Of a stretch of DNA of 64,000 nt, positions 13,520 to 49,830 are shown piece after piece. This DNA is from Isoptericola dokdonensis DS-3 (GTDB lineage: Bacteria; Actinomycetota; Actinomycetes; Actinomycetales; Cellulomonadaceae), in contig NZ_CP014209.1 of assembly GCF_001636295.1 (NCBI RefSeq), forward strand, positions 1,364,001 through 1,428,000, given 5' to 3'. The notes under the pieces are model-generated. The model saw only the letters and a list, made by a program, of their open reading frames with translations, ran no database searches and was not told the origin of the DNA. Made by a program: the position numbers and the translations under genes. Numbering within the stretch: position 1 is the stretch's first letter; every line of letters starts with the position of its first letter.

Positions 13520-14371
13520 ATGAGCACCGACGCCCCCTCGACCCTCGATCTCGACGACCCCGCGACGGACCCCTTCGACGTCGCCCGCGCCGCCGCGGAC
13601 CACATCGCCACCGCCACCGGGGTGTCCGGCCACGACGTGGCCCTCGTCCTCGGATCCGGCTGGGGAGGTGCCGCCGAGCTGGTCGGCGAGGTCGTCGCGG
13701 AGATCCCCACGCACGAGATCCCGGGCTTCTCGCGGGCGTCGGTGGAGGGTCACCGGTCGACGACCCGCTCGATCCGCGTGGAGCGGCCCGACGGCTCCAC
13801 CCGCCACGCGCTGGTCATCGGCAGCCGCACCCACCTCTACGAGGGCAAGGGTGTGCGCCGGGTGGCGCACGGCGTGCGCACGGCCGCCGCGACGGGCTGC
13901 AGCGCCGTCGTCCTGACGAACGGCTGTGGTGGACTCCACATCTCGTGGCGTCCCGGCCAGCCGGTGCTGCTCAAGGACCACATCAACCTGACGGCCACCT
14001 CCCCGCTGGAGGGTGCGACGTTCGTCGACCTGACCGACCTGTACTCCCCGCGGCTGCGCGACGTCGCCCGCTCCGTCGACCCCGAGCTCCCGGAGGGCGT
14101 GTACGCCCAGTTCCCCGGCCCGCACTACGAGACGCCGGCCGAGGTGAAGATGGCCGGGATCATGGGCGCCGACCTGGTCGGCATGTCCACCACGCTGGAG
14201 GCCGTCGCGGCGCGGCACTGCGGCATGGAGGTCCTCGGGATCTCGCTGGTGACGAACCTGGCGGCCGGGATCAGCCCGGAGCCGCTGTCGCACGCCGAGG
14301 TGCTCGAGGCGGGCCAGGCCGCCGGCCCGCGCATCAGCGAGCTGCTCGCCCGGATCGTCCGGGCGATCTGA
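13520..14371 (+). CDS. deoD: Purine-nucleoside phosphorylase
   Basis: The 283-residue enzyme cleaves purine (deoxy)nucleosides with phosphate to base and (deoxy)ribose-1-phosphate. It is the trimeric class: LGSGWGG phosphate loop (residues 45-51), the SRTHLYEGKG region, FPGPHYETPAE with the catalytic Glu region, and VGMSTTLEAVAARH plus SLVTNLAAG near the base-binding Asn. The symbol punA would be equally apt. The start ATG 13520 lies six bases after TAGTCT (13508-13513), leaderless. The mutase gene begins 10 bases downstream and can process the ribose-1-phosphate produced. Confidence 0.95.
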   Translation: MSTDAPSTLDLDDPATDPFDVARAAADHIATATGVSGHDVALVLGSGWGGAAELVGEVVAEIPTHEIPGFSRASVEGHRSTTRSIRVERPDGSTRHALVIGSRTHLYEGKGVRRVAHGVRTAAATGCSAVVLTNGCGGLHISWRPGQPVLLKDHINLTATSPLEGATFVDLTDLYSPRLRDVARSVDPELPEGVYAQFPGPHYETPAEVKMAGIMGADLVGMSTTLEAVAARHCGMEVLGISLVTNLAAGISPEPLSHAEVLEAGQAAGPRISELLARIVRAI

Positions 14372-35702: not shown

Positions 35703-35744
35703 CGTCGGGCGCGAGTCAGCGCTCGTCGGGCGCGAGTCAGCGCA
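35703..35744 (+). repeat. Two 21-bp direct repeats with the AGTCAGCGC core
   Basis: The unit CGTCGGGCGCGAGTCAGCGC occurs at 35703-35722 and 35724-35743, one base apart. The core CGAGTCAGCGC is the same word that forms the 20-bp-period arrays at 47757-48314. It lies between the sdh terminator and the convergent membrane-protein gene stop at 35763. Confidence 0.8.
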
Positions 35745-45856: not shown

Positions 45857-46825
45857 ATGACCGCGCCCACCACCTCCGCCCGCCACGCCTGGGGCCTCGG
45901 CCTCGCGACGATCGCCGACGACCGCACCACGCTCGACGTCTGGTACCCGGCCCCCGCGCTGGGCGAGTCCCCCGACGACGTGGACGTCCCGGCCGAGCTC
46001 GCCGCGCTCACGCAGCGCGACGACGCCCGCCGCGTGGACGTGTCCGTGGTGCACACCCAGATCGACCTGGACGCCGCCCCGGCGAGCGCCGCGGACGCCT
46101 ACCTGCGCCTGCACCTGCTGTCGCACCGCCTCGTCGCCCCGCACGGCCTCAACCTCGACGGCGTGTTCGGTGCGCTGGCGAACGTCGCGTGGACGTCGCA
46201 CGGGCCCTGCAGCGTCGCCGGTTTCGAGGCGACCCGGCTGCGGCTGCGCGCCGCCACCGGCGCACCCGTCACCGTGTTCGGCATCGACAAGTTCCCGCGG
46301 ATGGTCGACTACGTCGTGCCGTCGGGCGTGCGGATCGCGGACGCCGACCGCGTGCGGCTCGGCGCCCACCTCGCCGAGGGCACCACCGTCATGCACGAGG
46401 GGTTCGTCAACTTCAACGCGGGCACGCTCGGCGCCTCGATGGTCGAGGGCCGCATCTCGGCGGGCGTCGTCGTGGGTGACGGCTCGGACGTGGGCGGCGG
46501 CGCCTCCATCATGGGCACCCTGTCCGGCGGCGGCAAGGAGGTCATCTCCCTCGGTGAGCGCAGCCTGCTCGGCGCGAACGCCGGTCTCGGCATCCCGCTG
46601 GGCGACGACTGCGTCGTCGAGGCGGGCCTGTACGTCACCGCGGGCACCAAGGTGACGGTGCTGGACGAGATGGGCGACGAGGGCGAGCCCCGCGTCGTCA
46701 AGGCCCGCGAGCTGGCCGGGCGCGACCGGCTGCTGTTCCGCCGCAACTCCCGCACGGGCGCCGTCGAGGCCCTCACCCGGGGCGGCGTCGGCGTCGAGCT
46801 CAACGCCGCCCTGCACGCGAACTGA
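45857..46825 (+). CDS. dapD: Tetrahydrodipicolinate N-succinyltransferase
   Basis: A 322-residue hexapeptide-repeat acyltransferase of the actinobacterial DapD type. An N-terminal alpha/beta domain (about 1-155) is followed by a left-handed beta-helix (about 160-265: [46 protein letters not shown]). The C-terminal domain ends ELNAALHAN. It commits tetrahydrodipicolinate to the succinylated DAP route with DapE (44672) and DapC (49869). ATG 45857 lies seven bases after TAGGCT (45844-45849), leaderless. Its stop overlaps the following gene (TGATG). Confidence 0.95.
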
Positions 46826-47751
46826 TGGACGAACGGCGGCGCCCGGCCGCGCGGACGGCCGGCGCCGTCGCCACGTTCCTCCTCCTGGGGGGCGCTGCCG
46901 TGGCCGGGGTGGTCTGGTTCCTCGGCTCGCAGGAGCGGACGCGGGTCACCGAGGAGTGCTCGGCCGCGCTCGACGGCGACCGGTACGTGCTGTCGCCGGT
47001 GGAGGCGGGCAACGCGGCTCTCATCACCGGCATCTCGATCCAGCGTGGGATGCCCGCTCGCGCGGCGACGATCGGCCTGGCCACCGCCATGCAGGAGTCC
47101 CGCCTGGTCAACATCGACTACGGCGACCGTGACTCCATCGGGCTGTTCCAGCAGCGCCCCTCGCAGGGCTGGGGCACCCCCGCCGAGATCATGGACCCCG
47201 TCTACTCGACCAACGCGTTCTACGACGGGCTCGTCCAGGTCGACGGCTGGCAGGACATGGAGGTCACGGACGCCGCGCAGGCCGTGCAGCGCTCCGCGTT
47301 CCCCGAGGCGTACGCCCAGCACGAGCAGCTCGCCCGCGCCTGGGCCTCCGCGCTGACCGGCAACTCTCCCGGCGCGATCACGTGCACCCTGCGCCCGGTC
47401 GGCGACGACGACCCGACCGGCGCGGACGCCGCCACCGTCCTCACCGATCTCCTGGCCCGCGACCTCGGCGTCCCGCAGGGCTCGGACGGCGTACAGGTCG
47501 GCGAGCCCTCCGAGGACGGCGTGACCGTCGTCGTCGACGCGTCGTCCCTCCCTTACGACGACCCAGACCGCGCCGCCTGGGCGGTCGCCCACTGGGCCGT
47601 CACGACCGCCGACGCCACCGGCGCCGTCGAGGTCCGCGCCGCCGACCAGGTCTGGACCCGCGACTCCGCGCAGTGGTCCCCCACCCCCGACGGCACGGAA
47701 CCCGTCCCCGCCGGCGAGGCCGTCGTCGTCGTCGCTCCCGCCCCCGCCTGA
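46825..47751 (+). CDS. Membrane-anchored lytic-transglycosylase-like protein
   Basis: A 308-residue protein with one N-terminal membrane helix (AVATFLLLGGAAVAGVVWFLG, about 15-35) and an extracytoplasmic domain. Residues about 65-135 (ATAMQESRL, then DSIGLFQQRPSQGWGT and YSTNAFYDGL) look like a lysozyme/transglycosylase-like core with a candidate catalytic Glu in QESRL. Similar proteins are common but uncharacterised in actinobacteria. It starts inside the dapD stop codon, so it is coupled to peptidoglycan precursor synthesis, which fits a wall-related role. Confidence 0.8.
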   Translation: MDERRRPAARTAGAVATFLLLGGAAVAGVVWFLGSQERTRVTEECSAALDGDRYVLSPVEAGNAALITGISIQRGMPARAATIGLATAMQESRLVNIDYGDRDSIGLFQQRPSQGWGTPAEIMDPVYSTNAFYDGLVQVDGWQDMEVTDAAQAVQRSAFPEAYAQHEQLARAWASALTGNSPGAITCTLRPVGDDDPTGADAATVLTDLLARDLGVPQGSDGVQVGEPSEDGVTVVVDASSLPYDDPDRAAWAVAHWAVTTADATGAVEVRAADQVWTRDSAQWSPTPDGTEPVPAGEAVVVVAPAPA

Positions 47752-47756
47752 TCACG

Positions 47757-47899
47757 AGTCAGCGCACACCGGCGCGAGTCAGCGCAGAACTCCACCAGTC
47801 AGCGCACGACGACGCCAGTCAGCGTGAATCGGCGCCAGTCAGCGCAAGATCCGACGAGTCAGCGTCGATCCGTGCCATACAGCGCAGGCCAGCGCATCG
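47757..47899 (+). repeat. Array block A: seven units at exact 20-bp period
   Basis: AGTCAGCGC or AGTCAGCGT begins at 47757, 47777, 47797, 47817, 47837 and 47857, and a decayed copy (ATACAGCGC) at 47877. The preceding base is G or C and about 10 bases between cores vary. It starts six bases after the stop of the transglycosylase-like gene. It is not coding: frames shift between units and no ribosome-binding site is present. Confidence 0.9.
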
Positions 47900-47929
47900 A
47901 CCCGACCAGGCGAAGCGAACCCGGTCCGT

Positions 47930-48100
47930 GCTGACGACCCCGACCGGCTGACGGCTGTCCGCTGACTCGCCGGGTTCAACGCTGACGGGTGCCGATCTGC
48001 GCTGACTCGTCGGATCTTGCGCTGACTGGCGTCGAGGTGCGCTGACTCGTCGGATCTTGCGCTGACTCACGTCGAAGTGCGCTGACTCGCGGCAGGCCGA
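47930..48100 (-). repeat. Array block B: seven regular inverted units plus two decayed ones
   Basis: GCTGACTCG-type cores begin at 47961, 47981, 48001, 48021, 48041, 48061 and 48081, exactly 20 bases apart and opposite in orientation to block A. Decayed GCTGAC copies lie at 47930 and 47947. Units at 48001 and 48041 are identical over 20 bases, so there is a 40-bp superperiod. The 28 bases at 48000-48027 (and again 48040-48067) are the exact reverse complement of 47837-47864 in block A. Confidence 0.9.
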
Positions 48101-48128
48101 GCCGGACGAAGCGCGACCCACGGCAGAG

Positions 48129-48225
48129 CCCGGTGTCCGACGACGAGGGCGCGGTCGTCAGACCGGAAGCGGAGCGCCCCCTGGGGCGCGTGAGCGCGAC
48201 CGCGCCCTCGTCGTCGGACACCGGG
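48129..48225. repeat. Perfect 29-bp inverted repeat inside the array region
   Basis: Arms 48129-48157 and 48197-48225 are exact reverse complements over 29 bases (outer end CCCGGTGTCCGACGACGAGG). The 39-base loop holds its own 7-bp hairpin GCGCCCC-CT-GGGGCGC (48174-48189). It separates blocks B and C. Confidence 0.85.
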
Positions 48226-48234
48226 CGGACCAGC

Positions 48235-48314
48235 GCTGACTCGGCGGAATCCACGCTGACTCGCGCCGATGTGCGCTGACTCGGCGGAACGTGCGCTGAC
48301 TCGCGCCGACGTGC
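48235..48314 (-). repeat. Array block C: four inverted units at exact 20-bp period
   Basis: GCTGACTCG cores begin at 48235, 48255, 48275 and 48295. Units alternate between a CGGCGGAA type and a CGCGCCGA type, giving the same 40-bp superperiod as block B. The block ends 15 bases before the gltA terminator. Confidence 0.9.
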
Positions 48315-48329
48315 ACGGACCTGGCACGA

Positions 48330-48365
48330 CGAGAGCCCGCACCGGACGGTCGGTGCGGGCTCTCG
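48330..48365 (-). terminator. gltA terminator
   Basis: A perfect 15-bp stem CGAGAGCCCGCACCG with CGGTGCGGGCTCTCG and a 6-base loop, 29 bases beyond the gltA stop. Confidence 0.85.
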
Positions 48366-48393
48366 ACGTACGCCGGGACGGCCCGGCGAGGGG

Positions 48394-49695
<1,302 letters not shown>

Positions 49696-49830
49696 GTCTT
49701 CCTTCCCTGACGGGCCCCGGCTCCCGTCGTCGGGGGCGCTGCGGGCACGCGATCTCATGGCAACGTGACGGGCTACCTGCCGGCACCGCCAAGGGCGGCG
49801 TCACCACAGGGCAGCCTCGGCCTGCGGATG

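Follow-up and report, generated by a model that had tools for sequence, protein, structure and literature searches.

The window, a 64,000-nucleotide stretch of the chromosome of Isoptericola dokdonensis DS-3, carries between two convergent genes an array of 20-bp units that is one of dozens in this genome, most of them at the 3′ ends of genes. Each unit comprises a consensus core (CGAGTCAGCGC) and 9 weakly conserved bases and is not a palindrome. The arrays appear to be gene-end markers of a kind not described before, for a putative cell factor to read. Tentatively, and judging from sequence, we propose that they may be helically phased sites for a putative protein that switches specificity, probably serving at gene ends as a terminator or roadblock. 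A sequence-specific DNA-binding protein would read the 9–11 bp core and assemble along the DNA in 20-bp steps (about two helical turns). Its specificity would change between species, with the cores following genome-wide, and the assembled protein would most likely form a boundary effective from both sides and keep RNA polymerase out of the neighbouring gene. We infer the protein, its assembly and its role in termination or as a roadblock from the patterns described here.

The array occupies the gap at 47752–48393, which separates the convergent ends of a + strand gene and a − strand gene that we take to be the citrate synthase gene gltA, a name assigned from its sequence (Table 1). Sixteen copies lie within one mismatch of AGTCAGCGC (six in block A, six in B and four in C), and direct reading of the array reveals a few further copies in register with at least two mismatches. 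An earlier reading of this DNA from the sequence alone (hereafter the sequence-only reading) had counted at least 17 copies in three blocks, which is a fair estimate. It had also given the step within each block as exactly 20 bp; all blocks do run at 20 bp, apart from one 40-bp step in block B that spans a mutated copy. The program TRF also detects the window's 20/40-bp arrays. The bare number of one-mismatch copies in the whole window (32 found versus 33.0 expected) is not above chance, so the case rests on the phasing and on the genome-wide picture. Two features of Table 1 were absent from the sequence-only reading: the 2-unit array and the hairpin with 30-bp arms inside the main array.

Table 1. 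Positions of the array blocks, hairpins and adjoining genes in the window
Feature	Position	Strand	Details
Block A	47757..47865	+	6 units AGTCAGCGC/T in 20-bp steps; starts 6 bp past the stop codon of the + strand gene
Block B	47959..48087	-	6 units (at most 1 mismatch) in a 20-bp register; orientation opposite to A
Block C	48233..48301	-	4 units in 20-bp steps; orientation opposite to A
Hairpin element between B and C	48128..48226	.	30-bp perfect arms and 39-nt centre; CGCTCACG...TCCGCTTCCGGTCTGA on the - strand
Terminator-like hairpin	48330..48365	-	Between block C and the gltA stop codon; from RNA fold
Upstream convergent gene	46825..47751	+	Ends 6 bp before block A
Gene taken to be gltA (citrate synthase)	48394..49695	-	Start from the codon-usage gene caller (longest ORF starts at 49758); convergent with the preceding gene
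Second array	35714..35743	+	2 units, 21-bp step; between convergent genes (35609 / 35763)

In the window's genome (G000; related genomes are numbered G001, G002 and so on), the word CGAGTCAGCGC occurs 164+202 times on the two strands, whereas its reversed control gives 2+0. There are 149+116 tandem pairs with a 20-bp step (265 exact pairs in all) and 83+64 triples, against 0+0 control hits in both cases. These copies form at least 69 array clusters, the window array among them, in stretches reaching up to about 3.0 of the 3.83 Mb; by extrapolation, the whole genome perhaps holds some 90–100. By type of gap, 37 of the 69 clusters are convergent, 23 tandem and 7 divergent, with 2 unassigned; the 15 clusters read in G010 divide into 9, 3 and 3, respectively. 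An enrichment of arrays towards the replication terminus is suspected at most; by eye, origin genes are not recognisable at the start of either contig. Genes were called with a simple codon-usage caller, and start codons may be off. The sequence-only reading had proposed a search for the word in this and related genomes, with genome-wide occurrence at random spacing as the outcome that would speak against an array; the word does occur genome-wide, but at 20 bp.

The arrays favour gaps between convergent genes. Such gaps make up 38/70 of the array gaps in G000, 12/24 in G017 and 11/18 in G001, versus 39/344, 10/93 and 9/89 of the other gaps in the same array-bearing stretches, a comparison set distinct from a random genome sample (Fisher p = 3.6e-14, 7.2e-5 and 9.0e-6, respectively). 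The divergent shares of array and other gaps are 7/70 versus 67/344 (G000), 0/24 versus 20/93 (G017) and 0/18 versus 20/89 (G001). Blocks outside ORFs lie nearest to a gene 3′ end in 84/104 (G000), 24/32 (G010), 34/41 (G017) and 28/31 (G001) cases, and in the same genomes no block comes closer to a called start codon than 27, 35, 30 and 31 bp, respectively. Two-sided clusters are ordered head to head (>>> <<<) in 20/30 cases in G000, 15/18 in G017, 15/16 in G001 and 5/9 in G010. This gene-end, mainly convergent location together with the head-to-head order suggests a two-sided boundary to RNA polymerase. Some arrays are, by eye, located beyond a terminator-like hairpin, where a further terminator seems unneeded; this counts against a role in termination.

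The same location could also reflect an RNA element of the 3′ end. In such a model the >>> <<< transcript folds as a long core–core hairpin, or an RNA-binding protein reads GAGGUAG-like words after the stop codon, for termination or for protection of the mRNA end. The model would account for the head-to-head clusters of G017 and G001 and for the blocks lying in sense to the nearest gene 3′ end in these genomes (29/34 and 23/28, respectively). Furthermore, structured RNA just past stop codons is a known theme, as in the reported ribosome termination structure (PMC7518266). We nonetheless consider an RNA element quite improbable as an explanation of the arrays. Blocks are antisense to the nearest gene end in 31/84 cases in G000 and 12/24 in G010, and the two arms of one G001 array (L146) carry non-complementary core variants, with GAGGTAG in 9/9 units of one and GACGTAG in 5/8 of the other. 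One-sided arrays, which are unable to fold on themselves, constitute 36/66 of the G000 clusters with at least two exact cores, and they keep the same 20-bp step.

Spacing is as strict in one-sided arrays as in two-sided ones. Successive exact cores are 20 bp apart in 204/252 cases in G000, 121/130 in G017, 87/97 in G001 and 47/55 in G010, and most of the remaining distances are 40 or 60 bp; G010 also has 7 steps of 10 bp. In one-sided arrays the 20-bp step is found in 104/108 (G000), 44/44 (G010), 33/33 (G017) and 19/19 (G001) cases. The step also persists between adjacent exact cores 15–25 bp apart whose spacers differ at four or more sites (137/147 in G000, 32/33 in G010, 84/85 in G017 and 50/50 in G001). 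Units flanked by exact cores have core mismatches of 0.00–0.05 per site, except at a single site each in G000 and G001 (0.14), versus spacer differences that are mostly 0.2–0.6 per site, as the sequence-only reading had noticed for the window when it described conserved cores and variable intervening bases. Adjacent units have spacers that differ at roughly 20–60% of the variable sites. Whatever their own sequence, flanked units carry an exact core in 111/139 (G000), 21/24 (G010), 79/85 (G017) and 57/66 (G001) cases, a choice of units that favours well-kept arrays and would miss decayed ones.

The arrays therefore keep the core, leave the spacer loose, fix the step and do so as strictly on one side as on two, which is the pattern of phased protein sites. 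A conserved core, a little-constrained spacer and fixed phasing are also the general marks of arrays of protein sites. A chromosomal protein-binding array at a 3′ end is the best supported of the three options that the sequence-only reading had listed, with the protein itself putative. That reading had placed the cores nearly on one face of the DNA, two helical turns apart. The step is indeed about two turns, but at 10.5 bp per turn it amounts to 1.9, so that the cores drift around the helix, and this counts against a phased protein.

Out of 9 sites, spacers differ between opposite arms of one locus and between different loci by 5.16/5.21, 5.19/5.33, 5.19/5.32 and 5.92/5.87 in the four genomes, and the within-locus difference is the smaller in 16/30, 4/9, 12/18 and 8/16 loci. 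Opposite arms are about as different as separate loci, which indicates that they have nothing but the core in common, as binding sites would. Neither an inverted duplication of the arms nor RNA pairing of their spacers is supported by these values, and the little or no extra likeness of opposite arms also argues against an RNA element. Identical spacers recur between loci more often than in a first-order model in G000 (169 versus a mean of 54 and a maximum of 98) and in G017 (27 versus 6.7 and a maximum of 15), which makes some copying between loci likely in these two genomes; G010 (7 versus 4.3) and G001 (5 versus 4.4) show no such excess.

Copying of this kind is what a selfish or neutral family of tandem repeats (a satellite) would produce. 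Copying would spread and lengthen the arrays, which would survive at gene ends, above all convergent ones, as nothing breaks there, and the lineages would differ by their master unit. Insertions are tolerated at gene ends, and the arrays are patchy in the genus and rare outside it. An array within a coding sequence is also consistent with a satellite. A G000 ORF (L091, 3211–4347), nuclease-like by eye, carries 9 forward units in its reading frame, which encode about 58 residues of RESAQ/TSQR/RVSA repeats; where G000 carries the array, the G010 ortholog has a Gly/Ala-rich linker with no unit. After the nuclease-like gene, both genomes have an array-hairpin-array element. The comparison of these two species shows that arrays can be gained or lost, and the in-frame array was either gained in G000 or lost in G010. 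A gain, if so, is what a selfish repeat does and would count against the protein-array reading. Arrays that come and go and a patchy presence make the satellite the main rival, although one we regard as somewhat unlikely.

The weak point of a satellite is the long retention of cores beside varying spacers. Array positions are inherited. The G000 ortholog of a flanking gene adjoins a G000 array for 13/15 G010 arrays; of the other two, one has no ortholog in the stretches compared and the other has an ortholog gap without an array. For GAGGTAG-type arrays, a G000 array is no more than 700 bp away from the G000 counterpart of a flanking gene in 11/24 (G017) and 7/19 (G001) cases, counts that are lower bounds (the G000 array stretches compared extend up to 3.0 Mb). 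The flanking genes of G000 and G010 differ at 1417/4736 four-fold sites (30%; one gene counted twice). At 11 orthologous locus pairs 31/47 interior cores are exact, with mismatches of 4% at seven of the nine core sites and of 13% and 21% at the other two; that no more than 31 are exact counts, like the 10-bp steps of G010, against the protein reading. At 5/11 of these pairs the spacers still resemble each other more than the control does, and at 6/11 they do not; we rejected the idea that spacers hyper-mutate. Old arrays common to two species at this divergence thus have mostly intact cores and hardly any indels beside variable spacers, whereas homogenisation by unit turnover should have homogenised the spacers along with the cores. 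The suggestion in the sequence-only reading of a decaying mobile repeat is unsupported as to decay, since spacing and most cores are kept despite the divergence of the two species.

The cores also coincide with stop codons. In the stretches read, a gene's own stop codon falls inside a core in 51 genes (18 in G000, 7 in G010, 12 in G017 and 14 in G001), as the TGA of reversed GCGCTGACT units in G000 and G010 and as the TAG of GAGGTAG in G017 and G001. The first unit holds the stop codon in 45/51 such genes, with no array unit upstream in the gene; we would expect about one third if the frame of entry were random. At two pairs of loci (L151 of G001 with L082 of G000, and L156 of G001 with L073 of G000) both lineages have the stop within a core, and the gene-adjoining block is, by eye, oppositely oriented between the two genomes, as expected if the core changed while the stop had to stay. 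These stops could instead be the purpose of the array: a 20-bp step (2 mod 3) gives each of the three frames a TAG or TGA over 60 bp and would end read-through or frameshifted translation. We find such a fail-safe function hardly credible, although the stop codons inside cores speak for it. In G000 the core in + orientation (AGTCAGCGC) is free of stops, and blocks of this orientation are nevertheless often found behind + genes, including in the window; conservation of the arrays also extends to more sites than a stop requires. Furthermore, a survey reports no evidence, in eubacteria as opposed to eukaryotes, of selection for fail-safe 3′ additional stop codons (PMC6764699).

We also compared the core words across the genus. 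Pairs of AGTCAGCGC occur in G000 and G010 only, among 58 genomes (G000 included). A looser triple, CGAG-NN-AG at 20 bp, is present in 14/18 genus genomes and 13/203 other genomes of the family (27/221 overall). Its control gave 0 hits except in G004 (1), G007 (2), G108 (1) and G239 (22). Within the genus, G003, G005, G009 and G013 have no triples and G011 just 4; outside it, G028 has 15, G239 has 119 but with 22 control hits, and the rest have 1–6. The GAGGTAG triple is found in 4/396 genomes of the order, all within this genus, in a sample that omits several array-bearing genus members. Among the matches listed, and leaving out G007 and G015, the commonest word is CGAGTCAGCGC in G000 and G010, CGAGTCAGGAC in G002, CGAGGTAGCGC in G001, CGAGGTAGGCAAC in G016 and G017, CGAGGTAGTTC/TCC in G004, CGAGGTAGTAC in G006 and CGAGGTAGAAC/CGC in G014; CGAGGTAGTGC is one of several words in G008. 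One G000 hairpin (L081, 3315–3387) has two GAGGTAG units per arm, 20 bp apart, and so carries the word of a sister species within a AGTCAGCGC genome.

The words do not simply follow descent. In a gltA tree, which represents a single gene and is weak at some nodes, G010 is the sister of G000 (1.00) and G002 groups with G017 (0.99). G002 shares the TC core of G000 and G010, yet its tree partner G017 has a GT core, which suggests that the core changed more than once. The array-free genomes are spread over the tree. Their number, together with G011 (5/18 with no or almost no arrays), suggests that the factor is dispensable or that the word is different there. Samples of about 100 kb each from G003, G005, G013 and G011 contain no long 20-bp intergenic array of another word; the G003 sample has one short-unit repeat. 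In G009, which lacks CGAGNNAG arrays, we observed a 2+2 unit head-to-head array of CGAGATCGACCC with 20-bp steps (L119, 9535–9604). Arrays lie beside gltA in 4/18 species (G000, G010, G016 and G008), by eye with three core types, and the G008 locus has units, a hairpin of the same family and then reversed units, much like the window.

In its strongest form, the protein reading becomes a gene-end marking system. A putative protein would polymerise in 20-bp steps at dozens of 3′ ends, and the arrays would be rewritten in place across the genome when its specificity shifts (GGTAG to GTCAG, with different last core bases), even in cores that carry stop codons. We regard this fuller version as unlikely. 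If true, it would be a bacterial case of genome-wide co-evolution between a DNA-binding protein and satellite-like sites, which to our knowledge is otherwise known from eukaryotic centromeres and PRDM9 hotspots, and it would add a new two-sided transcription boundary. A protein array would represent a chromosome element of a new class and would set gene boundaries in GC-rich bacteria in a new way. The sister species would naturally supply six or more core variants as a test bed for how a protein and hundreds of sites change together. If the repeat is selfish instead, we are dealing with a satellite whose cores persist over long periods right where genes end.

The hairpin between blocks B and C belongs to a second family. 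On the − strand its RNA folds at −86.6 kcal/mol (z −10.5). Members of the family have variable, perfectly paired arms of 18–31 bp and a conserved centre of 38–39 nt with a covarying inner stem. The pattern of the centre (GTTCACG-N12..18-CCACTYCGGG) is present in 18/18 genus genomes, with 32 copies in G000, 29 in G010 and 0 in the control. By eye, 21/48 long hairpins in stretches of G000, G010, G016, G017, G009 and G001 are members; loci with the element include the window and L053, L057, L068, L073, L075, L078, L086, L091, L105, L112, L113, L118 and L122. The alignment comprises 20 copies from five species and omits the copy that falls within a called ORF (L088). The proposed structure pairs in 99.3% of cells, with changes on both sides in 29/37 pairs, and its covariation score is 0.587 versus 0.133 in shuffles (0/500), a test in which the outer stem is favoured because copies were found by perfect arms of at least 18 bp.

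The hairpin and the arrays are associated. Of the exact-pattern hairpins in G000 up to 3.0 Mb, 13/23 are within 1 kb of an array (9 of them inside one), where 5% would be expected. The hairpin also occurs without arrays, beside gltA in G017 and G002 and at L118 in G009. No Rfam family names it in the window or in the five loci scanned (L053, L057, L068, L073 and L122), which gave just 2 weak matches, both below the gathering score. It appears to be an undescribed structured element in its own right. The association with so strongly covarying a hairpin is a point in favour of an RNA element, which is plausible for the hairpin and less likely for the array. The structured 3′-end element among the options of the sequence-only reading has a real counterpart in this array-associated hairpin.

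Other structures were observed in these gaps. The only gathering-level Rfam match in the window is a borderline one to the Guanidine-II riboswitch (48338–48386, + strand; 32.6 versus a gathering score of 32), on the strand opposite the gltA terminator. No + strand gene suited to it follows, and two hairpins with ACGG loops probably produced the match by chance. L068 has, straight after the stop of its left gene, a third 20-bp tandem repeat (GGCTGAGTGGCGGTGACGGC) beside two copies of the hairpin element. A repeat of a different kind occurs at L120 of G009 (13976–14164), where a tandem array with an 18-bp unit and CACCCACCCATGGGT adjoins a long inverted repeat. A further long hairpin that recurs, with AACGAGCGTGCTGACTTGGCACC-like arms, lies in convergent gaps at L071 (8412–8477) and L091 (6573–6632) and in a tandem gap at L099 (11582–11653).

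Among the papers listed by a full-text word search and topic searches of the open-licence literature, we found no description of such a repeat. An exact-pair search of a public genome collection, from which the own or very near genomes may be left out, returned for 15 loci one match each in other groups of organisms, which we read as chance or unrelated. None of the bacterial repeat families that we compared combines a fixed 20-bp step, loose spacers, a species-specific core throughout the genome, inherited 3′-end positions and embedded stop codons. REPs are palindromes with a conserved 5′ tetranucleotide and are linked to the Y1 transposase (RAYT). The arrays resemble REP and BIME elements in being dispersed, intergenic and of alternating or inverted orientation, and differ in their non-palindromic 20-bp units. 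The Y1 transposase (PF01797) is absent from the 18 genus genomes (5/14 control genomes were positive). We therefore rejected mobility by RAYT and consider a REP of this type unlikely; the absence is also a point against a satellite. CRISPR repeats of about 23–50 bp have unique spacers and occupy one or few loci, unlike the present 9–11 bp cores with a 20-bp period in 69 clusters and two orientations. The sequence-only reading had likewise seen no fit to CRISPR or REP elements. As we know them, DNA uptake sequences are also unlike tandem 20-bp arrays.

Satellite units are alike over their full length, whereas the present arrays keep the core only. The arrays are like the prokaryotic satellites described in one study in being tandem repeats, partly intergenic and scattered over the genome, for which satellite transposition was proposed (PMC6749651). 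Direct repeats of the heptamer TAACTGA in Beggiatoaceae, Cyanobacteria and Bacteroidetes also form many dispersed and patchy intergenic sets with no proven factor (PMC4679880). In the main species those repeats for the most part directly precede start codons, and one word is used across phyla (PMC4679880). The present arrays lie mainly at 3′ ends and have a fixed 20-bp step, free spacers and species-specific words. The word itself is different from TAACTGA, and most blocks are closer to a gene's 3′ end than to any other gene edge. Plasmid iterons are direct repeats of about 20 bp at one origin that a protein reads with helical phasing; the arrays have a similar unit length, but at dozens of chromosomal gene ends. 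In eukaryotic rDNA terminator arrays (TTF-I/Reb1) and in the bacterial Tus-Ter system, protein sites at gene ends or fork traps serve as orientation-dependent roadblocks, and the likeness of the arrays to these systems is an analogy of mechanism only.
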